DNA from: a bacterium 210917-SL.2.15 | Lineage (GTDB): Bacteria > Bacillota > Clostridia > Oscillospirales > Oscillospiraceae | Direction of reading: 5' to 3' | Assembly (NCBI GenBank): GCA_020555605.1 | Contig: JAJCJC010000007.1 | Coordinates: 1 to 64,000 of the forward strand | DNA length: 64,000 bases | In this document: piece by piece, positions 33,606 to 59,840 of the stretch | Layout of the letters: every line of letters begins with the position of its first letter | Position numbering within the stretch: position 1 is the first letter of the stretch | The notes under the pieces: model-generated | What the model saw: the letters and a program-made list of their open reading frames with translations, nothing else | Told to the model about the DNA's origin: nothing | Databases searched by the model: none | Program-made: the position numbers and the translations under genes

Positions 33606-33618
33606 AAGGAGGAACAAA

Positions 33619-34897: not shown

Positions 34898-34991
34898 GTC
34901 ATGCCCTTTTTCAGCTGTGCAAATTTTGCGGGACTTTTTTCATTTCAGCTATTGACTTTTGTTTGCAGGACTCCTCGATTCTTAAAATGGC

Positions 34992-35132
34992 CTATTTTGT
35001 GTGGTGTCCAGCTCCAAAGACCAGAAGCAGGGCGACAGCACAGAGAAGTAGGCCAGTCCAATTTCGATCCATAATCAGCTTGATTACCGCCACAAGCAGC
35101 AGTCCGCCCACCAGGAGCACAACGCCGTTCAT
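34992..35132 (-). CDS. Small membrane protein, last gene of the immunity array
   Basis: A 46-residue hydrophobic protein: VVLLVGGLLLVAVIKLIMD, then WTGLLLCAVALLLVFGA, two membrane helices with a short turn, ending GHHTK. GGGAGG lies 7 bases before the ATG, which directly follows the stop of the DUF4261 gene. Tiny two-helix proteins are one known form of immunity protein. It lies at the IS110 edge but has its own stop codon, so it seems complete. Confidence 0.6.
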   Translation of the reverse strand: MNGVVLLVGGLLLVAVIKLIMDRNWTGLLLCAVALLLVFGAGHHTK

Positions 35133-36011
35133 TCAGCGTCCTCCCGAGGCATAGTTCCCCATGTGGATGTCCAGCACCTCTCTGGGCGGCTGGATCAGGG
35201 CGTCCTCATACTGGCACTTCCACTGAATCTCCCGGCACATCTGGCCATCCGCCACGCCGCCTATGGTTTCCCCATCCTGAATGGGGTTATCATGCTCCAA
35301 TATGTACGATGCCACATTGTAGGCGTGGTTTACCACCCAGTTGGGGTCCATGCCGTGGAAGTGGTACTGGAGGTCGGGCAGGAGCAGGGTGCTCATACCC
35401 ACCGTGTCGATGAGCATATCCTCCGTACCCTCAATGTTGAAGAAACGGACATTGACGCCAAAGCGGATAAACCGATCTGGCCCCTCAATCTGATGGGAGC
35501 GCACATCCTCTGCCAGAAACAGCTTGCCGCAGTTCTGGAAATAGAATGCCTCACAGGTGGGGTACAGCTCCGCCAGAGCCTCCAGAAAGTCGGCGTCCAG
35601 GTTGGCCCGTTCCAGCGCCGGAAGTGCCGCAGCCAGCATATCGGTGGCTACCACCTGATATTTACACTCCCGGAAGATCCGCTCCCGGTCCTCCTGGCAG
35701 TCCCACATCTGGCTCATCAGGAAGGCATCAAAGCCTTTGCCCTTGAACTTGTCGCATTTCATCACCATCAGCTGCACCGGGCATTTTCCGTCCTTGAACT
35801 CTGCAATATGCTCCTGTGCGGCAAAGCCAGCCATTTTCTTATCATAACAGAAGCACTCTGTTGATCCGATGTGCTTCTCCATTACGGCAGTCATTTTTTC
35901 TTTATCCGGCATTTCTACCGGCTCTTTGAACAGCATCTGAATGAGATAGGGGCCACCGGGCTGGGGGCCTTTTTTGTCGTCCAGATTTTGCTGGAAAGCT
36001 TTATTGCTCAT
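35133..36011 (-). CDS. DUF4261-like immunity-type protein
   Basis: A 292-residue cytoplasmic protein. The C-terminal half (DTVGMSTLLLPDLQYHFHGM, then VVNHAYNVASYILEHDNPIQ and DGETIGG) matches the DUF4261 pattern that also occurs inside the giant protein of this array (VLACDVTLQDGETIG). DUF4261 is found with SUKH and other immunity genes. The toxin it might neutralise is unknown. It is 12 bases downstream of the next gene. Confidence 0.7.
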   Translation of the reverse strand: MSNKAFQQNLDDKKGPQPGGPYLIQMLFKEPVEMPDKEKMTAVMEKHIGSTECFCYDKKMAGFAAQEHIAEFKDGKCPVQLMVMKCDKFKGKGFDAFLMSQMWDCQEDRERIFRECKYQVVATDMLAAALPALERANLDADFLEALAELYPTCEAFYFQNCGKLFLAEDVRSHQIEGPDRFIRFGVNVRFFNIEGTEDMLIDTVGMSTLLLPDLQYHFHGMDPNWVVNHAYNVASYILEHDNPIQDGETIGGVADGQMCREIQWKCQYEDALIQPPREVLDIHMGNYASGGR

Positions 36012-36023
36012 TTGGTTTCCTCC

Positions 36024-36803
36024 TTAGTAATCAAGCAAGATGGGCACCTGCTGTTCCTCGGCAAACCGCATGGCACGCCAGAACATGGAGAAGGCAAACT
36101 TGGCAAGGGATTGGGTGTCATACTGGGTGTGTTCCGGGATGTCCGCCTTGCTGTACTGTCCATCCGGGCCCAGGGTCCCGTCTACCGGGTATCCCTCGGT
36201 GTCTGCCCAGCCAAGGATGGTATCCTCATCGGCCTGCCACGCCAGCTGGTTCAGCTTTTCCAGCTCCTTCCGCAGTCCGCCCAAGGTGGCGATCATCGTC
36301 TGATCATCGGTGGGCAGAGGGCCTTGGAATAGAAAGCTGTCGGTGAGGGGAAACCACCAAGTCGCGCCCCGAAGCAGGGACCACACCCGCTCCTCGTCCG
36401 ATGCAAGGCGGGCAATCAGGGGATGCTCCCCGAAGTCCCAGTCCTTCTCCACGGTGAGAGGCACCGGTTCCTCGTATGTATGACAGGCGGCCACCAGCAG
36501 CATAGCGCCAAAGGCATCCCAATCTGGCTTATCGGTGTAATAGGGCCGCTCGTTGTCCTCCGGCCATGGAGTGTAGGGCGGTTGGTTCGGCTGGGAAATG
36601 GCGGCTAAGATCTGATCCCGCCAGTCCTCCACTGCCGCCTGGATCTCAGCCGGGGACAGCTCCTCCTCGTTGTCGGCGGGTTCTCCATCCGGGGTGATCC
36701 GGCTAAAGGTGTATCCGTTTTCCTCCGCCCACTGCTGAACAACAGTTTTCCAGTTGTGAGAATAGTACCGGGTCAGCGTCCCGGCGTAAATGTCAAGTCC
36801 CAT
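36024..36803 (-). CDS. Hypothetical immunity-cluster protein, 259 residues
   Basis: Begins MGLDIYAGTLTRYYSHNWKT, a start common to a family of unknown cytoplasmic proteins in Firmicutes and Actinobacteria immunity loci. It is rich in Trp and acidic residues, with WWFPLTDSFLFQGPLPTDDQ in the centre and KFAFSMFWRAMRFAEEQQVP near the end. AGGAG is 8 bases before the ATG at 36803; the earlier GTG lies inside that site. I cannot name the target. Confidence 0.6.
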   Translation of the reverse strand: MGLDIYAGTLTRYYSHNWKTVVQQWAEENGYTFSRITPDGEPADNEEELSPAEIQAAVEDWRDQILAAISQPNQPPYTPWPEDNERPYYTDKPDWDAFGAMLLVAACHTYEEPVPLTVEKDWDFGEHPLIARLASDEERVWSLLRGATWWFPLTDSFLFQGPLPTDDQTMIATLGGLRKELEKLNQLAWQADEDTILGWADTEGYPVDGTLGPDGQYSKADIPEHTQYDTQSLAKFAFSMFWRAMRFAEEQQVPILLDY

Positions 36804-36823
36804 AAGTTTCACTCCTTTTTTGT

Positions 36824-37150
36824 CTATATCATTTCATACAGCAGGGCAGCGTCGCCCTGCACCAGTTCCAGATGGGAGCGCAGCGTTTCAAGCCCGCTTT
36901 GCACCGCCTCGGTGGGCAGATCCCAGTCTGGGGCAATTTCAGCGGCCAGCAGATGAGTCGCCAGCTCTCCCTTCAGCAGCGCGCAGTCCAGGGTGTCCTC
37001 CGTCTGGGGCGCTGAAAAACGGACATCCAGATCCAGCTCGCTCTCGCACCAGTCCCAGATGGCCATGTAGACCGCGCCGGGGCGGCCGCCGTCGGACAGC
37101 TCCTGCCGCCGGCCGTCTTTGAGTAGATAAAAGGATGCGATCTGCGACAT
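36824..37150 (-). CDS. Hypothetical immunity-cluster protein, 108 residues
   Basis: Acidic, single-domain protein beginning MSQIASFYLLKDGRRQELSD, with the middle YMAIWDWCESELDLDVRFS. AGGAGG precedes its start and it is embedded in the array with short gaps. No family recognised; size and pI fit an immunity protein. Confidence 0.6.
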   Translation of the reverse strand: MSQIASFYLLKDGRRQELSDGGRPGAVYMAIWDWCESELDLDVRFSAPQTEDTLDCALLKGELATHLLAAEIAPDWDLPTEAVQSGLETLRSHLELVQGDAALLYEMI

Positions 37151-37161
37151 GGCAATTCCTC

Positions 37162-37698
37162 CTAAATGTTATTCGCTTCCATCAGTCCTTCGGCCTGCAT
37201 CCGAATCACATAGAAAGCCCGCACCCAGTCCAGTTCCTGCTCCATGGATTCCTCCAAAGCCAGCAGGCGGCGCTTTCCCAGCCTGCGGTCCAGGAGGGCA
37301 AAGATACGAACAAGAGGATTCTCGCTGACAAGGCTTTTCTCAATGCTCTGGTTGTTAAAGATCTCAAACGCCTCATAGAACACCTTTTGGTCAAAGGTGC
37401 CCTGCTCCAGCGCAAAGGCATGGGCCTGGTTGATGGCCTCTTTTGCGGAGTCACAATCTTTCAGCGTTGTAGACCGCAAATGATGAAATTTCGTCCACAC
37501 ATTCTCAAAATAGGTGTAGTAGTTGCTCCGGAGCACTTCCACACCGTCCATGCGGATGGCTGCACGCCCCTCATGGTCGGCGCTTTTGCTGTAACTGGTG
37601 GCAAAATACTGGATGTGGCCCCGGAGTGCCGGGCACAGGTAGTCATTCTCCAATTTGTTCCGGATTCCACTCCAAGTGGATACTCTACTGTTTGACAT
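37162..37698 (-). CDS. SF0329-type protein
   Basis: A 178-residue protein whose first part (WSGIRNKLENDYLCPALRGH, then IQYFATSYSKSADHEGRAAI) matches what is annotated as the SF0329 family, frequent in polymorphic-toxin immunity clusters. It is mostly helical in the C-terminal half with RIFALLDRRLGKRRL. The ATG at 37698 is chosen over a longer frame without a ribosome site. The biochemical role is unknown. Confidence 0.7.
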   Translation of the reverse strand: MSNSRVSTWSGIRNKLENDYLCPALRGHIQYFATSYSKSADHEGRAAIRMDGVEVLRSNYYTYFENVWTKFHHLRSTTLKDCDSAKEAINQAHAFALEQGTFDQKVFYEAFEIFNNQSIEKSLVSENPLVRIFALLDRRLGKRRLLALEESMEQELDWVRAFYVIRMQAEGLMEANNI

Positions 37699-37724
37699 AG
37701 GTGTTGTTTCCTTTCTGCTGATTC

Positions 37725-38276
37725 CTACTGCTTTTGGAGATACTCCCGGAAGCATTCGATGAACTCCCGATTCCGCTTAGGGACATCGAACCCCTTCCGA
37801 TGGGGGAAGAACCCCTCCTGTTCCACATCGTCCAGCAGCTTGGGCAGATTGGAAAACCGGGCAAAGAATGGTAGTGCATAGTCCTGGATCTGCCCGGAAA
37901 TTTCCTGGATAGAGCGTTCCCGCTCCAGCAGAGTAGATACCTCATAGCGGGGGAAGTCATCATACCGGTGGGTCAGCCGGGCGATGGAGGTACCCACGAT
38001 ACCATCATAGGTTTCCTCCGTCCCTTCCTGCTCACTGCGCCACTGGGCAATCACCTGGGAACTCACATCGAAGAAGGCAGTAAAAGTGGTGGAGCCAAAG
38101 CGGATGGAGGGGGAAAAGTAAAAGGAGAACACAAAGATGCCGTCTTTTTTGTAGATGTCATTTTTGCTCTTGCGGTATTTGTAGCCCAGCGGGATCAAAG
38201 GCTCCGCGATCCGCTCACAGGTATAGACGAAGATCTCACGGGGCTTGGTTCCCTTGGGAAAATCCTTCTTCTCCAT
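37725..38276 (-). CDS. DUF4304-like immunity-type protein, tentative
   Basis: A 183-residue protein with GYKYRKSKNDIYKKDGIFVF and SFYFSPSIRFGSTTFTAFFD, an alpha/beta pattern like DUF4304/DUF4268 immunity proteins that bind their toxin through a beta-sheet. The assignment is by eye. It starts 10 bases after the CbrC gene. Confidence 0.5.
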   Translation of the reverse strand: MEKKDFPKGTKPREIFVYTCERIAEPLIPLGYKYRKSKNDIYKKDGIFVFSFYFSPSIRFGSTTFTAFFDVSSQVIAQWRSEQEGTEETYDGIVGTSIARLTHRYDDFPRYEVSTLLERERSIQEISGQIQDYALPFFARFSNLPKLLDDVEQEGFFPHRKGFDVPKRNREFIECFREYLQKQ

Positions 38277-38285
38277 GTTGCCACC

Positions 38286-39149
38286 TCAATCAAAATCCAT
38301 CCAGACCAGGTGCTTTCCACAGTGGAGGCACTGGAACAGATAGCATTGCAGATGCCCGCCATTGACGGATTCCCGGATCATTCCCTTCTGCTCCTCGTCC
38401 CACATGGGGTCGTCCAGCACCTCCTCCAGCACACCCAGTGCCCGCAGTTCTCTGGCTCCCACATTACCCAAATAGGCGCAATAGTCACCACAATGGGCGC
38501 GCCAGTATTCCTGCTGCCAGCCGGAGTAGCCGGGGGTGCGGTGGATCAGCTCGTCCAGCTTCTCCGGATCGTCTACACCATCGTCCACAGAGAAATCATC
38601 TTGAAAACTACCGTCATATTTCCGGGCTGCTTCGCCGTTGGCGATGCACTCTGGGCACAGATATGCAATATCCTCCACTGAAAAGAACGGATTGGTATAG
38701 AAAATATGGGTCGTCTTGCCACAGCAGTCGCAGACAACGCCGTCTGCGGATTCCTCAAAAGCCCCAGTTTCCAGAGGGTTTGGGTGATACCGGAAGGCGG
38801 GCAGGCCCAGCTGGGCCTGCCGTTCCTTCTCTTTCTGCTTTTCCTCCGGCGTTTTGGGCTTGCGGAGAGCATAATGATTGCCCCAGTTTTCCGCATAGTC
38901 CTTCAGCGTGCCCAGCCGCTTGAGGGTCTTTTTATCGGAACGATTTCCGATTTGGCAGAGCAGTTCATAGGCATCCTTCTTGAAGTCCAGCAGATCATAC
39001 ACATCCACCAGCACTTCCTTGGCCTGCTGATCCTCACTCTGCTCAAGTTCTTCCTTGAAGGTATATAGAGCGCGGACACTGTCCGGACCTTCATTGGTCG
39101 CAACAAACTGTTTTTTTAGTTCGATATAGGTTTTTTGATATTCTGTCAT
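38286..39149 (-). CDS. CbrC (UPF0167)-type protein with N-terminal helical extension
   Basis: The C-terminal two thirds (LPAFRYHPNPLETGAFEESA, VCDCCGKTTHIFYTNPFFSV, YLCPECIANGEAARKYDGSF) is the CbrC/colicin E2 tolerance family. Two CxxC pairs suggest a zinc site, and HLQCYLFQCLHCGKHLVWMD closes it with another pair. About 100 helical residues precede it. CbrC is linked to tolerance of colicin E2 in E. coli; here it is likely an immunity or tolerance factor. GGGAGGTG precedes the ATG at 39149. Confidence 0.85.
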   Translation of the reverse strand: MTEYQKTYIELKKQFVATNEGPDSVRALYTFKEELEQSEDQQAKEVLVDVYDLLDFKKDAYELLCQIGNRSDKKTLKRLGTLKDYAENWGNHYALRKPKTPEEKQKEKERQAQLGLPAFRYHPNPLETGAFEESADGVVCDCCGKTTHIFYTNPFFSVEDIAYLCPECIANGEAARKYDGSFQDDFSVDDGVDDPEKLDELIHRTPGYSGWQQEYWRAHCGDYCAYLGNVGARELRALGVLEEVLDDPMWDEEQKGMIRESVNGGHLQCYLFQCLHCGKHLVWMDFD

Positions 39150-39164
39150 TGGTCGCACCTCCCA

Positions 39165-42100
39165 TCAATCCCACCAGAAATACCAGACGGTGGACTGCCA
39201 CAGAACATCTGCCAAGGAGCCAATGCTTCCATCCTCATTCTGATCCAGATCTGGGCAGAAACCATATTGCTCCACAGCCACCTCCATAGCTCTTTCCTTG
39301 GAGATCGGAGTTGGAAGTTCAAACTCCAATTCATCGTGGCTCATGGCGGCAGGGATGGCACCATGTTGCTCGAACCAGTATTTCGCCACTGCCATCAGGT
39401 CCGGTGTGTCGGGACACTCATTCCAATTTCCAAAGGGCAGGTAGGCGAAGATCTCCCAGGGGTTCTTTACCGGAATTTTAGCCAGAATGAGCGGATATGT
39501 CATTCCGGTATCATCGTTCCAATAGTTTGCGAAGCGGTCGTTGGGTTCTCCGCCCTCCATCTCGCCCAGGACTTCCTCATCCCAGTCCAGATCATCGTCC
39601 TCGGCTTCTTCCTTGCGCTGGCCAGTCAATTCCTCCAAAATCGCCTTTCCGTCCTTGACGGGAGCGGAGAGCGCCTTCTTCCGGTACTCCGTTACGGTTT
39701 TGAGGTCAAATTCATAGAAGTCCGCATCATGCTCCGAATCGGCGTTCATTACCAGACACTCCAACAGCGTTTCATCATCCGCCTGGATAAGCACGGGAAC
39801 AAAGCCCTCCCGTACCCCCAGCCGCTGGGCGTAGCTGTATGCCGACATGATGGGGTCATCATCTGCCATGGATGGGAAATAGGTACACTCGCAGTCCAAA
39901 TACTCCATGATGGCATGAGCCACCTCGGAAGGTTCCAGCGTGTCCTCGTCGAAGTCCTGTCCCTGCCAGTTGGCAAAGCGTTCTTCGATCACCTCTGCCA
40001 TAGCCTGATAGTAGTCCTCGTCAAAGGGGATGAACAGGTAGGCTTCATCTTGGAACTCATCGGAGTGATACCGCTCCGGGCCGAAGAAGCGGAGGGCGTT
40101 GTCGTCAACATCGGCAGGATAGTAGGGGCTGTCGCCCTCTCCGTAGTAATAGCCTGCAAAGGCACGGCCTTGCTGATTGAATAGCACAGAGAACAGACAG
40201 CCGTCCAGCTCATCCCGGATAAACTCCCGCAGATCCACGCTGGCAGGATCAGCCTTGACCTTTTCTACGACCTCTCCGTACTCCACGAGGAATTCTTCAC
40301 CCATCAGGTCGTGTTCCATGCACCAGCGCAGGTAGATGGCCATGTGGTTATAAGCATTGATGGGGTCAATAGGCAGTTCCTTCTCCTCAATGCTCTCAAG
40401 GTGATAGGAAGCGTCGTCCATCTCGCCGTCAAAATCATCATTGGAAAGAGTGCCACGGGTGATAGCATCCTGACGGGTGGGGGTTACGACAAAGCTGATG
40501 CCGTTCATTTTGTCCAACAGAGCATCTGCATCATGCTCCATTTTATAGTCCAATTCATCCCGGTAGAGGGGGATCACCTGATAGAAGTTGACCTCCTCGC
40601 CGCCCGGCAGGGTGCAGACCTCGCCGCCCTCCTCTGTACTTTGGGGGCCGGTGAGAATGGCGGCACACAGCTTCGTATTTTCCGCAAAGTCTTCCTCATT
40701 GTTCATGGTATGACCGAAGCCCAGCCAGGTGTCGCTGGCAATGGGCAGGCGGGCCAGAACCTTCAGCAGGCGGATGGGCCAGTACCACTTTTCGTCTTTC
40801 ATGGACTCCTGATCCAGCTTCCAGTCCGCAGGCAGCGCGATAGCCAGCTCCGCCCGCTCCAGCTTGTATTCCGCCAGTTCCTCCGGCACATTCATCCGGT
40901 GAGCACCCATACCCATGGTGACCAGGGTGTAATAGTCCCGCTCCTCAGTGGGCGGCACCATGCAGATGTCCACATGGATGTCTGGAGAAACCAGCTCGTG
41001 GAACACATTCTCAATCTCGCCGAAATACTGCTGGATGTGCCCCTCGACGGCCTCCATCTCCTTCTCGGTGTAGACTTCGGGATTACTGAATTCTTCCTCA
41101 TCCTGCTTGTCATCATTGTCCGAGTGGTCGCAGCTGTCATCCTCTGGATCTCCCTTTATAGGCTCGTAACCAATCTTCAGGGTCATCTGTTCCTCTGGCA
41201 GAGAGACACCGGGGCTGCGGGTGATGGTGTGTTTATCGTCCGCAGAAAAACCGATGGTCTCGCCGTCTTGCAGCGTCACATCACACGCCAGCACATAGGA
41301 GGCAAGGCTTGCCAAAAAGTCCCGTAGTTCCTCCGGCTCAGCGTCGGTGTTCAACACCTCCATTTCCTCCTTGCCAAACACATCCATGCCGTAGGTGTAG
41401 CCGTTTAGGCCCCCCTCGCTCCGGTACAGTCCGAACCAAACCCAGTTGAAGATGGGCAGTTCGTCCTTTTTGAGCATATCGGCAAGGCCCTCATAGAAAC
41501 GAGGCTCAAATACCACGCCGCTGGTGTAGACACCGGTGGCGTATTTCTGCTTGCAGCACACTGCCATCGCCTTGGTGAACAGCTTACCCCGTTCCAGCAG
41601 TTTTTCCTCCTCGCTCAACACAGCCACCACGATATGGGCCTTGTGTGCTTTGGCCACTTCTACGGCCTCTGGCCACATATAGTTGTTTTCGGCGTTGATC
41701 TCTGCTTCATTGTCCGGGATGTGACCGTGGAATAGTGTCACAATCAGCATCATATTGCCGACCCGCATTACCACAGCGTCATCGCTGTTCTCAACATCTT
41801 CGTCGCCCTCATCCGGCTCCTCATCTACGATGCCCCATTCTTCCCGCAGATCTCGAATCAACTGCTCCTTGTCCCACTCTGCTTTGGAGAGGAGCACAGA
41901 TCCGGCAAAGGAACCCTTATGGTCGGTTTCCTCCTCGTCGGCGTCATCCTCAAGATCCTCTGCATCTTCATCCGGATCATAGAGGGATTCATGCTCCAGT
42001 CCGCGGATAAATTCCTCAAAGCTGTCTGCCAGATGGGTAATTTTATAGTCATTTTCCTGATCCACATGGACTACCGCAGGCTCTCCCTGAGGGCCGCAAG

Positions 42101-45836: not shown

Positions 45837-45878
45837 GTCGGCACCTCTCTTTCTTTATTTCGTATCAAGCTTCTATTG

Positions 45879-47516: not shown

Positions 47517-47525
47517 ACGCTTACC

Positions 47526-47987: not shown

Positions 47988-47997
47988 TGTATTTCCC

Positions 47998-48722: not shown

Positions 48723-48732
48723 TCCATTTCCC

Positions 48733-49433: not shown

Positions 49434-49460
49434 AGTGTTCTCCTTTGTTCTGTCATATTT

Positions 49461-50408: not shown

Positions 50409-50413
50409 AGGGC

Positions 50414-51020: not shown

Positions 51021-51024
51021 ATTT

Positions 51025-51879
51025 TTAATAGCACTGGAGGATCAGCCAGATCCGGTCAAAGCGGCGGGCTGCCAGATCCTCTTTGGTGATATAGAAATAG
51101 ATGTGCCCGCAGTCTCCGAACATCAACTCGAAGTCACCCTGCTCCACGGTATCCAGCTGGAACAGCAGCATCCAGCGGTCACGGGCCGTTTCTTCCGCCT
51201 GTTGGCGGATATCCTTCGGGATTCTATTCCAGTTTTCGGGATTCCCCAGGCGATAGCCCTGGGATACCAGGTCGCACTCGTCGAACATACTGGTCTGGAT
51301 CACATCGGGCCAGCCCAGCAGCTGGGAGCGATCATCTGGGTTCTCGGGGTCCTCGCCAGTCAGTTCATCCAAAGCATCGTTGAAAGCGTCGTCATCCTTT
51401 TCATCCGGGAACACCTCGCTGAAGTCCTCCCAGGAAGGATAGGAACATTTCGATTCCATCCTGATCTTGACCATTGGGAACTTGAAGTCTTCCGCTATAT
51501 CTGCCGGAAAGTCAGCGGCGGACAGCGCGGACATGTCCTCGAACCAGTAGACGCGGGCACAGCCCTGATCCTTGGGGTCATAGCCCCAGCACTGGGTGTC
51601 CGTTTCATAGAAGAAGGAGAGCAGGCCGTGATCGGGCAGAAGATGCTCTTTGTCAAACTGGGCCAGCTCCTCACAGTTGAACTGCGCCAGGAAAGTGAGG
51701 GGACGATCCTTCACCACATGGTCATAGCTCTCGCCCTCATAGGTGGGCCAAACGAAGTCCGGCGGCACATCCGGCTTTCCGCCGAAGCGGGTGGCGCCCA
51801 GCTTATATTTTTCTTTCTTAGCAATTTTCAACACAATGCTGTTTTTGCCCAACAACTCCAGTTTTTCTTTCATATTCAT
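51025..51879 (-). CDS. YwqG (DUF1963) protein
   Basis: A 284-residue cytoplasmic protein. GGKPDVPPDFVWPTYEGESY, LTFLAQFNCEELAQFDKEHL, LPDHGLLSFFYE and LLGWPDVIQ mark DUF1963/YwqG. YwqG of B. subtilis lies in a toxin-immunity neighbourhood. The family has a double beta-barrel-like fold. The C-terminus with LMFGDCGHIYFYI is complete. Confidence 0.88.
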   Translation of the reverse strand: MNMKEKLELLGKNSIVLKIAKKEKYKLGATRFGGKPDVPPDFVWPTYEGESYDHVVKDRPLTFLAQFNCEELAQFDKEHLLPDHGLLSFFYETDTQCWGYDPKDQGCARVYWFEDMSALSAADFPADIAEDFKFPMVKIRMESKCSYPSWEDFSEVFPDEKDDDAFNDALDELTGEDPENPDDRSQLLGWPDVIQTSMFDECDLVSQGYRLGNPENWNRIPKDIRQQAEETARDRWMLLFQLDTVEQGDFELMFGDCGHIYFYITKEDLAARRFDRIWLILQCY

Positions 51880-51902
51880 AACATTTTCTCCTTATTGTTT
51901 CG

Positions 51903-52457
51903 TCATATCTTCCCATCCAGTGCCTCAACCGTTTTCATGGCAGCGGAATCAAATTTACACTGCCGCAGTTCCCGTTCGATCAGGGCAAACACATCGGGGA
52001 AGCACTCGATCTCGTCCTGATACTCATATTTCGCATACAATTTCCCGTACTCGGAGATCCAAACCTCCGCCGGGTAGTAGTAGCCGATATGACCGATGGG
52101 CTGGCATTTTTCGCCGGCAGCCTGTTCGATCTCTGCCAGTTCACAGCCGGACATATCCCGAAAATAGGCTTCTTCCAAATGGTTTTTGATCCCATTGACC
52201 AGGTAAGGAAACAGAGCAAACTCAAAGTCAGCCGCCCAGTTCAGTTTTTTCTGCTCCAGGTACCACTCACAGCACAGGCCGAAATACTTGCGGTAAAACC
52301 GCTGGGTGGTCTTCATCATCGGGACGCCATGGTCGGCGTAATACTGCTCCGCAATGGAAATATCCACACTGCGGCCTTCGTACCATCCGGCGTACTCCAT
52401 CAGCTGCTTGACCTTGCTTTTCAGGTCGCCAGAGATAGGGATGCGTTCTTTGATCAT
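51903..52457 (-). CDS. SUKH-3 family immunity protein
   Basis: A 184-residue protein with AGWYEGRSVDISIAEQYYAD near the start, FYRKYFGLCCEWY, then AGEKCQPIGHIGYYYPAEVW, a layout typical of SUKH-3. GGAGG lies before the ATG at 52457. Expected to bind and block a toxin domain. Confidence 0.8.
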   Translation of the reverse strand: MIKERIPISGDLKSKVKQLMEYAGWYEGRSVDISIAEQYYADHGVPMMKTTQRFYRKYFGLCCEWYLEQKKLNWAADFEFALFPYLVNGIKNHLEEAYFRDMSGCELAEIEQAAGEKCQPIGHIGYYYPAEVWISEYGKLYAKYEYQDEIECFPDVFALIERELRQCKFDSAAMKTVEALDGKI

Positions 52458-52489
52458 GTTGGTTACCTCCATTACAAGATTTCAGACAT

Positions 52490-52906
52490 TTACAACTCTG
52501 CTGCAAATTCATAAGAAACCGCAATGATGTTATAAACATCATCGTATGTAAACAGCCGGTAGTGTTGATAGATGCCTTTGTTAAAGTCCTCCCGCACCGG
52601 CAAAGACTTCAGCCAGGTGCTGTCCTCGATCAAATCAAAGGAGCTACGGTTCAGATGCCCCGTTTCAGCCAGATTTTCATAGGTGTCCAATTCACAGGCA
52701 AAATAGGCCAGTACCCGCCGGAAGGTGAGTGTGTAGGGAAACCAGTCTTTTTCGTCCCTGTGCTGAGAAATCAGATGGCCATTGATGTCCCCTATAAAGG
52801 TCAGATTGTTCAGATCATCCTGTTTCACCTGATCCAGATAGATGCAGTCCCGTCCCTTCAAAACACCTAAACAGGTATTAACAGCAGTCGCTTTTTCCAT
52901 AGACAA
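52490..52906 (-). CDS. Hypothetical immunity-cluster protein, 138 residues
   Basis: Contains TFRRVLAYFACELDTYENLA, STWLKSLPVREDFNKGIY and HYRLFTYDDVYNIIAVSYEF. A TTG start at 52906 fits the GGGGG ribosome site better than ATG at 52900. No family recognised; an alpha/beta immunity fold is plausible. Confidence 0.6.
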   Translation of the reverse strand: MSMEKATAVNTCLGVLKGRDCIYLDQVKQDDLNNLTFIGDINGHLISQHRDEKDWFPYTLTFRRVLAYFACELDTYENLAETGHLNRSSFDLIEDSTWLKSLPVREDFNKGIYQHYRLFTYDDVYNIIAVSYEFAAEL

Positions 52907-52981
52907 CTCTTACCCCCTCAATGTTGGCAGCTTTGAGATGGGTGATGTAAGTTCTGTTTTCTTCTGTCATAGCTTTACTCC

Positions 52982-54061
52982 TTATTCCTCAAACTCGCCC
53001 TCGATCATTCCGTTCAAATACCGGCCAGGGTCTGCGATGAAGTCGTCCCATTTAGCCAGAGGGTGGAACTCCTCGTGCTCGATGTCCAGATACCACAGCT
53101 TTTTGTCCCTGGGGCTCCACAGCAGCAGATAGTCGCTGTAGTTGTCCATCTGCACCATCAGGGAGAGCAGCTTCTTCCGTTTCCAGGTCATCTCCTGCAC
53201 ATCCATGAAGGAGTAGAGCTCCGCCCACTTCACCCATTCCTGATCCGGGAACTCCAGCCGCAGGGGGCCGGTCTTCAAGTATTCCACCAGCTTGGCAGGC
53301 AGCTTGTAGGGCATAAGCTGCCGGAGCTTCTCCTGCTCGTTGTGCCATTCCGCCGGTTCCAAGGCTTTCAGGTAGTCGGCCAGCTCCTGATTCTTGTTCT
53401 GCACCGCCACGGTGTAAGGCCGGTCGCCGTATTTGTCAGCAATGGTGATGTCGGCTCCTTGCTCAATGAGCCAGCGCACCATGGGGAGATTCTTATGCCG
53501 AGCCGCTTCGGTGACAGCGGTGGGGGCGTTCGGAAACACCATGTCTGGCTTGTGGTAATTGATGTCTGCCCCTTTTTCCAGAAGCAGTCGGGCAAGTTTG
53601 GTGTTGCCCTCGGACACAGCGGCCCGGAATGCCTCGCCGCCAAACTTGTCCACTGTGATCCCAGCTTGCTCCAGCACCTGGATATTCTCCGGGCGCTTGC
53701 CCCAGCGTACTTCCTGGATGGCCCGCTCTTTCTGCTTCGGGGAGAGTATTGCGGTCTGTTCAGCAAAGAGCGCCACCACCTCCGGCCCACAACAGCGGGC
53801 GGCGGTGAGCAGCAGGGGCTGTTCCTCTGCCCGACCGGGATCAGCTCCATGCTCCAGCAGGAAGTGAATCATGGGCACATCGTTCCGAAAAACTGCGATC
53901 TCCAGCGGCATCAGCTTGATGTATTCGCTGAGTTGGATGGGAGCACCCAGATCCAGACCGCCTTGGAGCAGCGCCTCCAGTTTGGGAATATCGTGTTCAT
54001 AAATAGCGACAGCCGTCTCTGGGAGGGTCTCCCAGCGGCCAATATATGCAATTTGGTACAT
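52982..54061 (-). CDS. Ankyrin-repeat protein with C-terminal unassigned domain
   Basis: A 359-residue protein. Ankyrin repeats are visible: MIHFLLEHGADPGRAEEQPL, KLARLLLEKGADINYHK and MVRWLIEQGADITIADKYGD. The C-terminal 130 residues (LVEYLKTGPLRLEFPDQEWV, then LLLWSPRDKKLWYLDIEHEE) resemble the SMI1/KNR4-associated type seen at the end of such proteins. Ankyrin proteins are frequent immunity proteins. Confidence 0.8.
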   Translation of the reverse strand: MYQIAYIGRWETLPETAVAIYEHDIPKLEALLQGGLDLGAPIQLSEYIKLMPLEIAVFRNDVPMIHFLLEHGADPGRAEEQPLLLTAARCCGPEVVALFAEQTAILSPKQKERAIQEVRWGKRPENIQVLEQAGITVDKFGGEAFRAAVSEGNTKLARLLLEKGADINYHKPDMVFPNAPTAVTEAARHKNLPMVRWLIEQGADITIADKYGDRPYTVAVQNKNQELADYLKALEPAEWHNEQEKLRQLMPYKLPAKLVEYLKTGPLRLEFPDQEWVKWAELYSFMDVQEMTWKRKKLLSLMVQMDNYSDYLLLWSPRDKKLWYLDIEHEEFHPLAKWDDFIADPGRYLNGMIEGEFEE

Positions 54062-54068
54062 AAGGCAC

Positions 54069-54413
54069 CTACTTTCGTTGTGGCTTTACTTTATATGGTA
54101 TCGTCCGGCCCAGCACCCGGCCCTTACCAACGGCATTAGCTCCCTCATAGATCAAAAATTCCGCATTGTTTTCCAGCGGAGCATAGTCAATGGTATCTGG
54201 ATAGAGGGGCTGGGCATTTCCAAAAGCCGGTTCACCAAATGCACAACGCTCCGTTCCATCCAGAAAGCACACACCCAGATATTCCGTGGTTCCGGTGACC
54301 GCAAAATGGGGACAATATTTTCCACTGACCAGGCTGGGAGGTGTTTTTCGTTTGCCACTCCAGAAAATGACCTCCACATGGAGAACCGCCCAGTTTTCAT
54401 CTGTTCCAATCAT
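54069..54413 (-). CDS. EF-Tu C-terminal-domain-like barrel protein
   Basis: A 114-residue protein: HVEVIFWSGKRKTPPSLVSG, then KYCPHFAVTGTTEYLGVCFL and FLIYEGANAVGKGRVLGRTI follow the strand order of the EF-Tu domain 3 barrel (SGYRP.F...; EG...GxGxV). It lacks the GTPase. It could act as a decoy for EF-Tu-directed toxins, which is inference. Confidence 0.6.
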   Translation of the reverse strand: MIGTDENWAVLHVEVIFWSGKRKTPPSLVSGKYCPHFAVTGTTEYLGVCFLDGTERCAFGEPAFGNAQPLYPDTIDYAPLENNAEFLIYEGANAVGKGRVLGRTIPYKVKPQRK

Positions 54414-54425
54414 GCTGTATCACCT

Positions 54426-55014
54426 CTATCCCACAATGGTAGTCTCCTTGATGGCCAGATTGTCGTAATCCATGACGATCAGCTTCCCGGCGGCCTCTGG
54501 GGTACACATGAACCAGGTGCTCACGCCCCAGGCGTCCGTCCTTGTAACGGTGAAAAAGTCGGTTTGGACGGGAGTCGGATTTCTTGCGTCAAGATAGTGG
54601 TCGGAGTAGAGATACACCAGATCCACCTCCCGCTCCGGCAGCCACTTGGCCCGGCGCGCACGCGGTTTACCATTTTTCAGAGTCTTTTCCCTGGGGTTCT
54701 CAAACCACGCCAGTTCCTTGATCTTCAGACCGGTGAAGGTATCCATCAGCCGCTGGGCAATCTCCCGGTGGGTAAATACTCCACAGTCCCAGGAGCCCAT
54801 CAGCCATGTCTGTATAAAGTCGCCCACCTTGCTGCCAGGAGCAGGGCGGCCCGTAGACGCTCTCATCCGCCCACATGACCTCCATCTTTTCACATTGATC
54901 TGGCCGAGGACAGGACTGCTTGTTGCCATAGCGGTACATAATATTTACATAGCCATAGTCTTCGCCGGTTCGGTCATGACCGATGGCTTCTATTTTATAA
55001 GCAGTGATTGACAT
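54426..55014 (-). pseudogene. Immunity-cluster gene broken by a frameshift
   Basis: The first part from ATG 55014 (MSITAYKIEAIGHDRTGEDY, up to WADESVYGPPCSWQQ) is in one frame. The second (KVGDFIQTWLMGSWDCGVFT, then WFENPREKTLKNGKPRARRA) is in another. The switch lies near 54840 in a G/C-rich stretch. Both halves have normal codon use, so the break is recent or a sequencing error. An intact form would be about 195 residues. The family is unknown. Confidence 0.75.
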
Positions 55015-55045
55015 TGCAGTTCCACCTCCTGAGCCAGCACAAAAC

Positions 55046-55588
55046 TCATGCCAATTCCGCGTCCAAAATCTGGACTTGTATTCCTTTCTCATTCACATAG
55101 TAAAGCGCAATGTAGTCGATACCGTCCCGCTTGACCTGTTCCCACAGCATCCGTTCACCGTTGAGCAGTTCCACGGTATCCGCTTCATCCGGTTCGAAGT
55201 CCTCTTTTTCGTCCTCATAGTCGATACTGTAACCCAGCTCCAGCACCAGCTTGGAAGCAGGGATTTCGTACCGTTTGAGGGGACGATCCTCCAGTTCGGC
55301 TGGATTATATTCATCGCAGAACATATTGTCATAGCCATGTCGCCCGCCGTCGAAGATGACGAACTCCTCGCCGCTCTCCGGGTCACGGGCTGCCACCAGT
55401 CCGGGAGCCGCATCGCCATCTACAATATAGGATTGGGGTTCTCCCTTTACTGTGAGCAGATCTCCGTAATACCAAACCTCCAGCAGTTCATTGCCAGTGG
55501 TAGAACACAATGTCACGGTGGACAGGCGTTTCTGCGCCCACTCCTTCACATGGCCGGTGAGCCAGGTGGGATATTTCTCAGTCATCAT
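55046..55588 (-). CDS. Hypothetical immunity-cluster protein, 180 residues
   Basis: Begins MMTEKYPTWLTGHVKEWAQK, with LVAARDPESGEEFVIFDGGR and RYEIPASKLVLELGYSIDYE. Acidic, alpha/beta. AAGGAG lies before the ATG. The family is not recognised; the DGGxHGYDN core resembles proteins next to SUKH genes. Confidence 0.6.
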   Translation of the reverse strand: MMTEKYPTWLTGHVKEWAQKRLSTVTLCSTTGNELLEVWYYGDLLTVKGEPQSYIVDGDAAPGLVAARDPESGEEFVIFDGGRHGYDNMFCDEYNPAELEDRPLKRYEIPASKLVLELGYSIDYEDEKEDFEPDEADTVELLNGERMLWEQVKRDGIDYIALYYVNEKGIQVQILDAELA

Positions 55589-55601
55589 AATCTTTCTCCT
55601 T

Positions 55602-55835
55602 CTATTTCAATTTCAGCACAAATCCCCAGATACTCACTACAATCAGAAGAACGCCCAGCAGGAAGAAAACCACACGCCGGTATCCTCTGCTGTGGCGGTG
55701 GGCATCCCGCGTACCAGTGGGGTCGCAGAGCCAGTTCCAGTTGCGGATCGCCCCAATTAAAATCACGGCTCCGATGAGCACCGAAGCAATGTACCAATGC
55801 TCTTGCAAAAATGCTGTGATCTGTTCGCTGTTCAT
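55602..55835 (-). CDS. Imm17-like small membrane protein
   Basis: A 77-residue protein with two helices, YIASVLIGAVILIGAI and VVFFLLGVLLIVVSIWGFVL, and the intervening WNWLCDPTGTRDAHRHSRGY. This matches the Imm17 type as I recall. As a membrane immunity protein it may guard against an envelope-targeting toxin. It begins right after the stop of the SUFU gene. Confidence 0.7.
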   Translation of the reverse strand: MNSEQITAFLQEHWYIASVLIGAVILIGAIRNWNWLCDPTGTRDAHRHSRGYRRVVFFLLGVLLIVVSIWGFVLKLK

Positions 55836-57851
55836 TTAGGTTTCCTCCTCGCCTTCGTCGTCGCGTATCACCTCATACCACGCTCCATCTTCTCCACGCA
55901 TCTGCATGGTACCATAGGGCAGGTTCAGGAGCGGGATAATGTCTGGATCGATGCGGCAGATGTCCCGAATATCATAGAAGCCGCAGTGTGACTCGTAGTA
56001 TTCATCCCCTTCACCGTACACATCGCCCTCGTCCCCGGAGTAGAAGGCCCAACCGCTCTCCCAACCCATATCCTCACGCTCAGGGAACAGCCGGTCCATA
56101 ATCTGCACCTTGCACCCATCCTGGGCGACGCGGTCGGAAGCGTAGCAGAACAGGGGACCGTCCCAGTCAGGAATGACAGCCGGTTTTCCTTCCGCTGCCC
56201 GCGCCACCCGCTCCTCGGGGTCATCTACAAATTCCGCTTCCAGATACTGCTGAAACCGCTCATCCAGCAGATGCTCCACACTCTGACGGTTCTTTTCGGT
56301 ATATGGAAGAAGCAGGTAGGCCGCTTCTTCTTCCGTAGAGCTGTTCCAGACGCGGTCTTTGAGCCCAGCCAAGACGATATTCCGGCAGTCCCGGCGGTAG
56401 ATATAGGGGTTAGAGCGGTTGTCCTGGGCGTACCACTGGGCAAAGCCTGAGCCTCTCCGGTCAAAGAACTGAGTAGACATTTTCCCATCCAGCTTGTCCA
56501 GGATGAACACCCGCAGATCCGGCCCCTTTCCGGCCCGGACCGCCTCCACTATCTCCCGATACTGGGAGAGGAACGGGTTACTCATCTGGCCCCGTTTGAT
56601 AGCCCACCCCAGATAGAAAGCCATCAGATTGCAGGCGTCCAATTCGTCCACTGGCAGGTGAAGCTCCTGGATCTTCTTGATCTGGTCTGCGGCGTTGTCC
56701 ATCTCCGCTGGGTCGTAGCTGATTTTCTCTCGGTCGGTGACCACATTCAGCCGGTGTGGATTGATGACCTCCAGGCTCTCGTCTGGGCAGAGGTCCAGCA
56801 GGGAATCCGAGCCGTGCTCCAACTTGTATTGGATCTCCTCCCGATAGAGGGGGATCACCTGATAGAAGTTGACTTCGTCCCCGTCCGGTAGGCGGCAGAA
56901 AAAGGAGTCCGTCCCAAACACACCGGGATAGAGCAGGATCTCACCCCGCAGCTCCGTGTTCTCCGCGAAGGGGATGCCATCCTCACCCTCATCCAGTGTA
57001 GTCCTGGATTCCAGCCCTACCTCCGGGTCCTCCATGGCGAAGTGGGCGGTGGCCAGCATCATCCGGATGGGCCAGCTCCACCGCTCCTCCCGGCAGTCCG
57101 CCTTTGTCAGCTTCCAGTCTCGGGGCAGATTGATGAGTAGCTCCGCCCGTTCCAGTTTTTCCTCCCGACGCTCCTCCGAGAAATCCATCCGATGCCGGCT
57201 CAGACCCACAGTGACCAGGGTGTAGTAGTCATGTTCCGGTCGAGGCAGGATGACGGCGATCTCCAGAGGGTGATCCGGATCGCTGTCGTCCGTGAGGAGT
57301 TGGGTATAGACACCGAAATACTGGTCGATATGTACTTTCACATGGCCGAGGATGTCATCGTCGGCAGGGGGGATGGTCTCCCACCGGATGATCTCCTCCC
57401 GCTCTTTCCAATCCAGTTCCAAGGAATTTTCCTCCTCCAGATATTTCTCACAATCCCGCACCAGCTCTTGGGCATCCGGGTCATCCGGGGCCAGGGACAG
57501 CCAGCATTTTGCGTATTCATAAGCGGTGGTTGCGGAGCCGTATGCCATCAGGCAGGAGTAGCCCATCCGGGCGTTCCAGTAGGGATCGTTCTCACCCTGG
57601 GTGCGGACGGACTCCAGCAGCTCAATGGCGTGTCGGATGAGATCCCCGTCCACTTCACCGTCGGTCCCATGCTCTCCATGATCTCCCAGAGCCGCCAGAT
57701 TGCTGTAAGCCCGACTCAGCTTGACGGTCAGCAAATAGCCCCGCTCCTGTTCCGGGATAGCCTCGATGGCCTCAATACATCGTGAGAACTCGTCCGCATC
57801 ATTCCACTTCTCAATCTGCTCCAGCAGTTTTGTTTCTTCTGTCTGATTCAT
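55836..57851 (-). CDS. TPR-SUFU-DUF2185 polyimmunity protein
   Basis: A 671-residue acidic protein. TPR-like helices (1-150) start LEQIEKWNDADEFSRCIEAI. SUFU (about 165-350) shows HDYYTLVTVGLSRHRMDF and EVNFYQVIPLYREEIQYKLE. A helical piece (400-470) with FYLGWAIKRG and FILDKLDG follows, then DUF2185 (562-660, LFCYASDRVAQDGCKVQIMD, IDPDIIPLLNLPYG). The same modules in partly different order occur in the giant protein at 39165-45836, so the two are recombining paralogues. Confidence 0.88.
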   Translation of the reverse strand: MNQTEETKLLEQIEKWNDADEFSRCIEAIEAIPEQERGYLLTVKLSRAYSNLAALGDHGEHGTDGEVDGDLIRHAIELLESVRTQGENDPYWNARMGYSCLMAYGSATTAYEYAKCWLSLAPDDPDAQELVRDCEKYLEEENSLELDWKEREEIIRWETIPPADDDILGHVKVHIDQYFGVYTQLLTDDSDPDHPLEIAVILPRPEHDYYTLVTVGLSRHRMDFSEERREEKLERAELLINLPRDWKLTKADCREERWSWPIRMMLATAHFAMEDPEVGLESRTTLDEGEDGIPFAENTELRGEILLYPGVFGTDSFFCRLPDGDEVNFYQVIPLYREEIQYKLEHGSDSLLDLCPDESLEVINPHRLNVVTDREKISYDPAEMDNAADQIKKIQELHLPVDELDACNLMAFYLGWAIKRGQMSNPFLSQYREIVEAVRAGKGPDLRVFILDKLDGKMSTQFFDRRGSGFAQWYAQDNRSNPYIYRRDCRNIVLAGLKDRVWNSSTEEEAAYLLLPYTEKNRQSVEHLLDERFQQYLEAEFVDDPEERVARAAEGKPAVIPDWDGPLFCYASDRVAQDGCKVQIMDRLFPEREDMGWESGWAFYSGDEGDVYGEGDEYYESHCGFYDIRDICRIDPDIIPLLNLPYGTMQMRGEDGAWYEVIRDDEGEEET

Positions 57852-57872
57852 CGTTTCACCGCCTTTTCTGTG

Positions 57873-58151
57873 TCATCCTTTGCCTTTTTTGAAGTGTCCG
57901 CTGCCTCGCCAGGTGTTGACCACACAGGTGAAGATCTGACCACAGTGCTTGCACCGGATCATGTGGGCCATAATCTCATCCGCCCAGCCATCCTCTGTCT
58001 TTACCTTCTCCAGCGGGCAGGTGGATTCCTCTTGCATCAGTTCAAATTCCCCCTCCGACACCAACTGCTGAATGTAAGCAATACAGGCCAGATAGTCCTT
58101 TGGGGCGTCAAATTTTCTCCATGTTTGAATGTTTCGGCAGTGCTCGCACAT
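57873..58151 (-). CDS. Small zinc-binding-type protein
   Basis: A 92-residue protein with CEHC at the N-terminus and CKHCGQIFTC near the C-terminus, which could bind one zinc ion. The middle is helical (CIAYIQQLVSEGEFELMQEE). The family is not known to me. It lies between the SUFU and DUF6138-like genes. Confidence 0.65.
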   Translation of the reverse strand: MCEHCRNIQTWRKFDAPKDYLACIAYIQQLVSEGEFELMQEESTCPLEKVKTEDGWADEIMAHMIRCKHCGQIFTCVVNTWRGSGHFKKGKG

Positions 58152-58163
58152 ACAGAGCCCTCC

Positions 58164-59546
58164 TTACGCAAATACCTGCTGATATTTCTCTTTCAGTTCC
58201 TTCGGTGCTGTCTTGATGACCTTGCTACCACCATTTTCGGAATTCTTTCCCCAGATGGCCCAGAGCAGGCTCTGCCAAGCGATGGCACGGAATTTCGGGT
58301 CTTTGTTTTCTTCCGGCAGGAGATAAGCGGAAAAGCGGCGCTTGACTGTCAGCAGCGCATCCAGGCTTTCCGCATTGGCAATCAGGCTGCGAAATTCCTT
58401 GGCAGGCTCCAACCACTGCATAGACAATGCGCCCCGCACCAATACCCCCAGCGTCCATGGTTGAAAACCAAACTTCCGGATCAATGCATGAAGAAATTTT
58501 CCTTGCAGTGAGGAGTGCTCGTCGTCGCAGAAATCCAGATACTCCGTTACCAGCGGTGCCCATCGTTCTCCCTCCAGTCCCAGGGCGAACACAGCAAAGG
58601 TGCCGGGCATTGCACAGGCTTCATCCGCGAGGTTTTGGTACCACTCAAACTCCCGCATAGCCAGACGAGCGTATCGCTCCATAGCTGGATGCAGACTGGG
58701 GTACTGCACAGCGCAGGCAAAGAGCTGATTGATTCCCTTCTTGGGCAAGCCGGGAATGGGCAGATAGAGTTTTTCCTTCCCACGGAACTCGATGGAGTAG
58801 CTACGGGGAAACTCCGGCTGCTCCAGCACCGCACACAGGTAGTCCAGGATTTCAGCATAGCACTCCTCGGTGGAGTCCCTGGCGGTAATGCGGATGGTGG
58901 CGAAAGCATCGTTGGCCGATGCGGTAAAATGCTCCGTCTTACGCCGCTGGATGTCCTTTGGCAATTTGCCGCTGCCATTGGTTTTCAGTTCCTTCACCAT
59001 GTCGGGACGGAGCTGGGAAACCAGACCGAGGATGTGTTCGGTTTTAAGAGATTCAAAGCTCTGTCCATACATCGTGCAGCAGACAGCCACATAGCAGGCA
59101 AAGCGCAGCAGCCCTTCGTCCACATCCTCCGGCCGCAACTCCGGCCACACCGTACAGGGGGGAAAGACTGTAAACCCATCGTCCCGCTCTCCCACAAGGA
59201 AGAACCGCTCCTGCACCTGCTGTTCTATATACTTCTCCAATGTATAGCGGATCTCTTCCCAGCCAACCAGCTGCCGCATGGCATCGCAGACGGAAACAGC
59301 ATCCTCACAGGGAAATTTCTTCAGCAGCAGTCCGGCCAAATACCGCTCCAGCAGTTGATCGGGAAGAAACGGTGTCCCGTTGTGATTTCGCACCACGGTC
59401 GGGTAGGCGGAGTGATTTTCACGAGCGGTTCCGTTCAGCACATCCTGAATGCAGAGATCCGCCTCCGCCAGCACCTCCGGGGAAGTGTCCGGTTTATGAA
59501 TCAGATAGTAGCGGTCATGTACGCCGTCGCGTTTTGGCAAACTCAT
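58164..59546 (-). CDS. DUF6138-like protein
   Basis: A 460-residue, mainly helical protein: EQQVQERFFLVGERDDGFTV, LRFACYVAVCCTMYGQSFES and KGINQLFACAVQYPSLHPAM. The pattern recalls DUF6138, found near immunity genes in Firmicutes; the assignment is tentative. It is the first long gene of the array, 16 bases after the small peptide gene. Confidence 0.6.
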   Translation of the reverse strand: MSLPKRDGVHDRYYLIHKPDTSPEVLAEADLCIQDVLNGTARENHSAYPTVVRNHNGTPFLPDQLLERYLAGLLLKKFPCEDAVSVCDAMRQLVGWEEIRYTLEKYIEQQVQERFFLVGERDDGFTVFPPCTVWPELRPEDVDEGLLRFACYVAVCCTMYGQSFESLKTEHILGLVSQLRPDMVKELKTNGSGKLPKDIQRRKTEHFTASANDAFATIRITARDSTEECYAEILDYLCAVLEQPEFPRSYSIEFRGKEKLYLPIPGLPKKGINQLFACAVQYPSLHPAMERYARLAMREFEWYQNLADEACAMPGTFAVFALGLEGERWAPLVTEYLDFCDDEHSSLQGKFLHALIRKFGFQPWTLGVLVRGALSMQWLEPAKEFRSLIANAESLDALLTVKRRFSAYLLPEENKDPKFRAIAWQSLLWAIWGKNSENGGSKVIKTAPKELKEKYQQVFA

Positions 59547-59562
59547 GCTTGATCACCTCTTT

Positions 59563-59733
59563 TCAGACAATAAAAAAGCCCCACGCCGCACTGTCATAAA
59601 GACAGGCTGACGCAGGACATGAAGAAGCCGCGTTGAAGGAGCCGCATCCACCAGCGGATGTAGTTTCTTCAACAACCAAAATATTTTTTTCGTATCTTAA
59701 AGCAGCAAATTGCTGTCCAATATATTTGTTCAT
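59563..59733 (-). CDS. 56-residue Cys/Ala/Ser-rich peptide at the head of the array
   Basis: From ATG 59733 the peptide reads MNKYIGQQFAALRYEKNILV, followed by VEETTSAGG and a tail CGSFNAASSCPASACLYDSA with WGFFIV at the end. The leader-like first 29 residues end in Gly-Gly, and the last 27 residues carry three Cys and many Ser/Ala, which resembles a peptide precursor. No modification or export enzyme is near, so it could also be a plain small immunity gene or a regulatory leader. It lies under the only visible promoter of the array. Confidence 0.55.
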   Translation of the reverse strand: MNKYIGQQFAALRYEKNILVVEETTSAGGCGSFNAASSCPASACLYDSAAWGFFIV

Positions 59734-59770
59734 AGCGGCACCATTTGTTCTGAGCGTAGTTTTATATCTT

Positions 59771-59799: not shown

Positions 59800-59840
59800 T
59801 ATTTTGTTGGAAATGCCAATGAAAAATTTTTGTGAATTTG

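Follow-up and report, generated by a model that had tools for sequence, protein, structure and literature searches.

A polyimmunity-type gene array on an integrative, apparently conjugative element of gut Firmicutes

The stretch of DNA analyzed here (64,000 nucleotides of contig JAJCJC010000007.1 from the Oscillospiraceae bacterium 210917-SL.2.15; hereafter, the window) contains an array of 27 co-directional genes on the minus strand (35133-59546), carried by an integrative element that begins within a tRNA-Arg gene at 26219 and runs beyond the window end. Genes of the array were called by a simple longest-frame rule; 98% of it is coding on one strand, the median gap is 10.5 bp, and 17 of the 27 genes are 100-300 codons long. 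The initial annotation of this DNA had described a toxin-free, orphan array of immunity-type genes on an integrative element, resembling the acquired interbacterial defense (AID) clusters of Bacteroidales (reportedly first described by Ross et al in 2019), and this description was supported; no toxin family exceeded the Pfam cut-off in any of the 27 genes. The 12 families it had named (SUKH, SUKH-3, DUF4261, DUF4241, DUF2185, SUFU, DUF1963, CbrC, ankyrin, Imm17, DUF5713, and DUF6881) were all found by Pfam profile search. DUF2185 corresponds to Imm33, CbrC was matched as UPF0167, which we take to be the same family, and the Imm17 match stayed below the cut-off (22.9 versus 25 bits). The statement that immunity families make up the array almost entirely went too far: seven of the 27 genes (starts 39165, 47526, 48993, 51903, 52982, 55602, and 55836; one below the cut-off) carry named immunity families, namely SUKH (three copies), SUFU and Imm33 (two each), Imm68, Imm51, Imm17, and Ank, but 10 genes matched only uncharacterized families over the cut-off (DUF4261, SF0329, DUF4304, UPF0167, DUF6966, DUF6881, DUF4241, DUF5713, DUF1963, and DUF6138), and 10 matched no Pfam family over the cut-off, NCBIfam likewise giving nothing near its cut-offs for these 10. 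The seven are not all adjacent, and between them lie DUF genes or genes without a family over the cut-off. LXG, Rhs, WXG100, and secretion families were not detected over the Pfam cut-off in the 27 genes; a weak LXG match in the DUF5713 protein (E 0.061, 13.6 bits, cut-off 26.5) stood beside other coiled-coil-like chance matches and is itself read as chance. The claim that toxin and secretion genes are missing thus held for the array, but the element does bear PemK/MazF-like and AbiE genes of the intracellular toxin-antitoxin type.

In the direction of transcription (all coordinates on the minus strand), the array starts with two genes, one without a family and one of DUF6138 (57873-59546), followed by a second, smaller polyimmunity protein (55836-57851; SUFU, DUF7832, and Imm33 behind an N-terminal part without a family), the Imm17-like gene (55602-55835), three genes without a family over the cut-off (54069-55588), and an ankyrin-repeat protein (52982-54061). 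Then come pairs formed by SUKH-3 and a 136-residue gene without a family (51903-52900), a 97-residue gene without a family and DUF1963 (50727-51879), DUF4241 and DUF5713 (49461-50740), an 87-residue gene without a family and Imm51 (48733-49433), and DUF6966 and DUF6881 (47998-48722). A SUKH immunity protein (47526-48008) and a 545-residue protein without a family over the cut-off (45879-47516) precede the largest gene (39165-45836), behind which lie UPF0167 (38286-39149), DUF4304 (37725-38276), SF0329 (37162-37755), two genes without a family over the cut-off (36824-37150 and 36024-36803), and, as the last gene, DUF4261 (35133-36011). The G+C content of the array (51-58% in 2-kb steps) differs from that of the element's flanking modules (43-46%; both within 26001-64000), which suggests that the cargo has another source than these modules.

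The largest gene, which the initial annotation had missed, encodes a protein of 2,223 residues (the giant). Its domains are, in order, DUF4259 (below the cut-off), Imm68, Imm33, a TPR-like linker, a 400-residue part without a family (residues 566-965; predicted structure poor, pLDDT 58), a second TPR-like linker (the two being ∼33% alike), SUKH, DUF4261, SUFU, DUF7832, and DUF4253; over the Pfam cut-off are SUFU, Imm68, Imm33, SUKH, DUF4261, DUF7832, and DUF4253. Several distinct immunity domains are thus combined in one polypeptide, which makes the giant a polyimmunity protein; that the frame encodes an Rhs-type toxin was rejected on the same Pfam evidence. The 120 homologues listed of 3,654 found (ranked by similarity to residues 566-965 and so not a fair sample, some possibly being cut at contig ends) represent 12 domain sets, and the order of the domains was the same in all 120. 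One indel (net 699 bp) deletes residues ∼1567-1805 together with the SUFU domain. In Eisenbergiella tayi and in strain CE91-St56, the gene is interrupted by inserted DNA that carries ABC transporter genes (a solute-binding protein and two permeases among the proteins examined).

The integrase at a tRNA-Arg and the relaxase, both named by the initial annotation, were confirmed by Pfam and ARAGORN. At the left end, as seen from the aligned left ends of the carriers, the 5′ part of the host tRNA-Arg(CCU) gene is followed by the core CTCCTAAG (26219-26226, plus strand; in the anticodon region, by eye) and then by the element, whose insertion splits the host gene. About 60 bp inside this end, the element carries a complete tRNA-Arg of its own (26289-26365, plus strand; anticodon CCT), found at this position in 9 of the 13 elements aligned (that of the window and those of 12 carriers). 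Next to it are a tyrosine integrase (26714-28105, minus strand; PF00589), an HTH_17 protein that is excisionase-like by position (28083-28520, minus strand), the PemK/MazF-like toxin (28883-29263; profile matches), and a regulatory module of an M78 peptidase, a weak helix-turn-helix match, and a WYL regulator (31252-33341, minus strand). An IS110-family transposase separates the integrase module from the array (33619-34845, plus strand), and its region (33354-34970) is missing from the copy in Clostridiales bacterium CCNA10. On the other side of the array, all on the minus strand, are a conserved backbone leader with a match to an extended -10 promoter (59547-59799; carrier alignment), a YpsA/SLOG protein (59841-60392), a MobA/VirD2-type relaxase (61046-62458), and AbiEii with the C-terminal part of AbiEi (62836-63971; profile matches). 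The cargo is therefore flanked, on the same element, by toxin-antitoxin genes on either side.

The window shows positions 26219-64000 of the element. Both ends were seen in six carriers, with ∼61 to 79 kb between the cores; at the right end, GGGTCCAT and CTCCTAAG are followed by an apparent tRNA 3′ half (by eye), of which the six hosts show five versions. In three carriers (Hungatella, CE91-St56, and Eisenbergiella), the core within the element's own tRNA is bordered by other DNA, and a second element appears to have inserted there; in strain 1_7_47, the end region is absent, and Neobittarella and GAM79 have an additional copy of the ∼102-bp end unit. What lies past the window end was read from the Neobittarella copy, in which 10 of the 15 open frames of at least 120 residues in that part were examined (one via identical Eisenbergiella DNA). 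They include a TraG-type P-loop ATPase (VirB4-like), a coupling protein of a type IV secretion system (VirD4-like), and a TrbL-like protein (TrbL_2), besides a CHAP protein, a CD1107-like protein, a topoisomerase, a ParA-like protein, and others. With the integrase, the relaxase, and delimited attachment sites, and with the secretion genes taken from Neobittarella, the gene set of an integrative and conjugative element is complete; because of this gene content, the element looks conjugative. The conjugative half of the same copy also holds an open frame of 2,947 residues (joined coordinates 34281-43124). A circular record of 75.8 kb (OY725843, Subdoligranulum variabile) was considered as the excised element and rejected, since the right end is absent; it holds a rearranged piece of the element with the array, 99.1% identical over window positions 49008-61204, and the match stops inside the relaxase. 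Two faecal "Bacteriophage sp." records (MT835765 and MT836354), which match pieces of 26191-33353 and 35133-59546, may be fragments of the element filed as phage.

A genome scan with the giant yielded 101 relatives, of which the best 80 were kept (in 66 loci). Among these 80, best-segment identity was 91-97% in, for example, Faecalibacterium, Hungatella, Holdemania, Enterocloster, Eisenbergiella, Emergencia, and Anaerotruncus; Atopobium minutum (Actinomycetota) matched at 84%, over residues 1766-2223 only. From the 66 loci, 25 carrier genomes were chosen by hand. Amino acid identity of the integrase was 100% (a rounded value) in 12 of them; for the relaxase it was 97-99% in 11, and Holdemania massiliensis has the former but not the latter. 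The other 13, including Faecalibacterium, lack this integrase but have a relative of the giant. The chromosomal MetH of the window, used as a control, did not exceed 56% identity in any of these 25 genomes and had no match in five, including both Holdemania. The five carrier species checked for lineage all belong to Bacillota. In the 6,962-bp left module, Holdemania filiformis, a member of Erysipelotrichia, differs from Hungatella hathewayi, a member of Clostridia, at four positions (99.94% identity), and Emergencia timonensis from Enterocloster alcoholdehydrogenati at a single base; the left module of the window is 96.8-98.4% identical to those of the ten carriers compared. Such near-identity between classes points to a recent cross-class transfer of this module. 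The relaxase gene, however, is only 96.3% identical between Holdemania filiformis and Hungatella hathewayi, which indicates that the element itself is mosaic. The nearest genome in the collection searched, CCNA10, has the same element at tRNA-Arg, with 97.6% identity over 26100-33353 and 97.4% over 59557-64000; its array matches in pieces (89-95%) with whole-gene gaps between them. When plasmid records were searched with DUF4241, DUF1963, DUF4304, Imm51, and the giant, the matches listed showed family names (DUF4241, DUF4261, YwqG, SMI1/KNR4, and suppressor of fused) or no annotation; for the giant, this covers the 15 listed of 73 records.

For comparison of the cargo, the element was taken from CCNA10 and 11 further carriers (right sides extended for CCNA10 and seven of them). 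Together with the window and a second array of CCNA10, this gave 14 arrays with 365 called genes in 88 families (60% identity), 15-48 families per array; 19 of the 88 are confined to the two identical copies of Eisenbergiella and CE91-St56. Six families occur in all 14 arrays by gene calls, among them DUF4261, UPF0167, DUF4241, DUF5713, and the protein without a family at 36024-36803; Imm17 was traced in all 14 at the level of DNA and was included manually in every array for the family counts. Of the 14 arrays, only that of the window has the SUKH gene at 47526 (60% identity). Across the 91 pairs of arrays, none of 8,738 comparisons of shared gene pairs was inverted (these are not independent, and two array pairs are near duplicates). 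Retesting the order on the element by protein match gave 19 conflicts in 4,386, of two artefact kinds: a DUF4259 paralogue of the giant's first domain, as it appears, and an over-called start hiding the Imm17 gene, which was checked. Among 90 distinct insertions in 12 arrays (only those >150 bp with a nearly closed partner junction, one of each duplicate array pair being omitted), 57 contained a single complete gene, 19 contained several, and the remaining 14 contained no complete gene. The indel ends fell within 15 bp of a gene end in 132 of 180 cases, versus 5.4% of random positions (median distance 6 versus 234 bp). The arrays of Holdemania filiformis and Hungatella differ by 10 families, and the array DNA that aligns between them differs by 4.7%. 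In the window, the DUF4304 gene at 37725 is free of synonymous differences from its Hungatella copy, whereas its two neighbors have a dS of 0.20. Such differences despite a near-identical left module, together with the patchy dS, argue that arrays are exchanged independently of the left module. The second array of CCNA10 (2.08-2.12 Mb; 48 genes, no such integrase module adjoining) has more families than any other of the 14 arrays and may be close to an ancestral superset.

Mean dN/dS of the array was 0.12-0.14 against five carriers (11 to 20 genes each), which indicates that the proteins are kept by purifying selection. Mean dS was 0.23-0.32 for the array and 0.005-0.22 for backbone genes. The promoter match with extended -10 (59799-59771, minus strand) lies in conserved backbone, and the variable cargo starts at 59557. 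Between promoter and array, the 219-nt leader (59547-59765) folds with a z-score of -2.3, 4 of 200 shuffles folding as well; it is conserved with the backbone and contains, by eye, a short open frame. Attenuation in the leader is possible.

Taken together, we consider it likely that the cargo, a heterogeneous polyimmunity locus with two fusion proteins, is an orphan immunity library that is spread by conjugation and edited by whole-gene recombination. One conserved backbone promoter would read through all array genes, expressing them as a single operon, and the recipient would gain at once, without the matching toxins, many cytoplasmic toxin-binding antidotes, which would presumably neutralize incoming polymorphic toxins. 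The element would integrate at CTCCTAAG in tRNA-Arg(CCU), supply a replacement tRNA, and move between families and classes, with conjugation as the probable route. In the recipient, arrays would recombine with relatives that are already resident or newly arriving. By homologous recombination, either in neighboring genes common to both or at gene boundaries, whole genes would be added, removed, or swapped at fixed positions, and whole domains of the giant likewise.

The tyrosine integrase at the element's end and the predominance of single whole genes among the indels would also be expected of an integron-like or rAID-like cassette array (rAID, recombinase-associated AID), in which this integrase captures genes singly at a repeated intergenic site. 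Such capture is disfavored because the order on the element is unshuffled; moreover, the 12 direct-repeat families of at least 20 bp in the array revealed no recurrent junction site (the longest repeats link homologous domains), the 26 intergenic spacers, inspected by eye, showed ribosome-binding sites only, and the site at which the integrase itself acts, CTCCTAAG, lies at the ends of the element. We regard cassette capture as very improbable; fixed order and gene-sized indels fit better with homologous recombination and with deletion from a larger ancestral array. Just as little probability is assigned to the view that the array genes are a defense directed at phages or at other, competing mobile elements, and not at toxins of neighbors. 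AbiE, PemK, and the WYL regulator on the same element speak for it, but the named domains are toxin-immunity families, and PADLOC, run on three of the 27 array proteins, returned one weak match for the giant (E 0.0074) and none for the other two.

Somewhat less improbable, if still unlikely, is that the array stores self-immunity; the matching toxins would then be, or until recently have been, made by the carriers themselves, and the array would serve to protect their kin. The carriers were searched for LXG, EssC, and the Rhs core (WXG100, type VI secretion, and other toxin families lay outside this search). The Rhs core was found in six of the 25 and EssC over the cut-off in two, which would suit self-immunity. 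LXG, however, exceeded the cut-off in none of them (one weak match; the Bacillus subtilis control was positive) and, across the phylum, in five of 398 genomes (13 reached E ≤ 0.001), and the same element resides in hosts of two classes. When representatives of the 88 array families were compared with 11 stretches around the carriers' Rhs and EssC genes, no match was obtained except an ABC permease. With LXG scarce and no array families near these genes, the array looks orphan in its hosts. Of 26 LXG loci (18 over the cut-off), one contained a relative of DUF4241 (E 1.4e-19) in divergent orientation to the LXG gene; in another, a piece of DUF1963 was matched weakly (E 0.004). The suggestion of the initial annotation that the array is possibly directed at type VII toxins is not supported by these counts and loci as far as a particular target is meant, although such a target is conceivable.

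The orphan-library reading has to be weighed against several observations, some of them already mentioned. The comparison around the Rhs and EssC genes yielded no partner for the array families, and the type VII secretion and Rhs markers searched are absent from most of the 25 carriers. Twenty of the 27 genes lack a named immunity domain by Pfam, and the conserved protein at 36024-36803 has a predicted structure (pLDDT 72) without a PDB or viral match at E ≤ 0.001. The names DUF1963, DUF4241, DUF4261, DUF4304, UPF0167, and DUF2262 (a family present in the array of a relative) do not occur in 300,000 characters of the text that defined polyimmunity loci (Zhang et al, 2012; PMC3482391), so that an immunity role of the array genes beyond the seven is by association. 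Promoter matches in 44000-61100 numbered 13, with 13.5 expected from shuffles; being no more frequent than chance, they leave the promoter at 59799-59771 suggestive. In 48 other loci, 125 of 10,018 order comparisons conflicted. Of these, 112 came from four loci (L073, L077, L080, and L088) and are real or unresolved departures, and the other 13 were singles or pairs, mostly of the two artefact kinds. Finally, 48 of the 180 indel ends lie beyond 15 bp from a gene end.

A more general proposal, which we favor by a modest degree, is that gut Firmicutes share one mobile immunity library through cross-class conjugation, with fixed, ordered slots for genes and domains that are switched mostly singly. 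It would be a Gram-positive analogue of AID in which editing proceeds through homologous recombination instead of cassette capture, and it would imply a shared toxin arsenal. What was a concept inferred in 2012 is now a concrete, delimited element present in culture-collection strains (Hungatella hathewayi DSM 13479, Holdemania filiformis DSM 12042, and Eisenbergiella tayi DSM 26961). The question of which toxins are used among gut Firmicutes thereby becomes testable, and closely related elements that differ by one gene provide natural knock-outs.

No paper on this element, its vehicle, or its dynamics was found in the literature covered, from which most subscription journals were absent. The kind of locus is already known, however, and the notion that it is a new one was not borne out: polyimmunity loci and proteins were defined in 2012, including loci of Firmicutes with XerC/D recombinases nearby in several cases (Zhang et al, 2012; PMC3482391). 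Without counterpart in the literature covered are the vehicle, the cross-class spread, and the ordered turnover by genes and domains. The 2012 work lists SUKH, SUFU, Imm33, Imm68, Imm51, Imm17, and Ank either beside partner toxins or as parts of polyimmunity loci and proteins. As in its heterogeneous loci, immunity-type genes of unrelated families stand here in tandem, in one orientation, with tiny gaps and without interrupting toxin genes, content varies among relatives, a recombinase lies nearby, and the hosts are Firmicutes. Unlike those loci, the array of the window rides a delimited, apparently conjugative element seen across classes; the strict conservation of order goes unmentioned in section 39 of the 2012 text. 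The size is not clearly larger, the locus of Bacteroides D22 having 19 immunity proteins and the present one 27 genes, seven with named immunity families. The giant resembles the polyimmunity proteins described there in fusing SUKH, SUFU, Imm33, Imm68, and TPR; such proteins reach 10 domains in Clostridium sp. L2-50. They were said to tend toward small loci and perhaps not to share bacteria with extended ones (PMC3482391), whereas here a polyimmunity protein of 2,223 residues sits inside an extended array, and its relatives vary by whole domains in fixed order.

The nearest experimental parallel is the rAID system (PMC12247911), whose short genes (100-300 codons) protect against effectors of type VI secretion. 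Both have orphan, co-oriented SUKH-type immunity genes and a tyrosine recombinase in gut bacteria; the PF00589 integrase, compared here at the level of recombinase class, lies on the same element but ∼7 kb from the array. rAID genes have a conserved intergenic motif; here, no junction repeat of at least 20 bp was found, the spacers having been inspected by eye only. Unlike rAID, which was described from Bacteroidales with genes under 41% G+C, the present array has a G+C content of 51-58%, is found in non-Bacteroidales hosts, and travels as the cargo of an element that looks conjugative.

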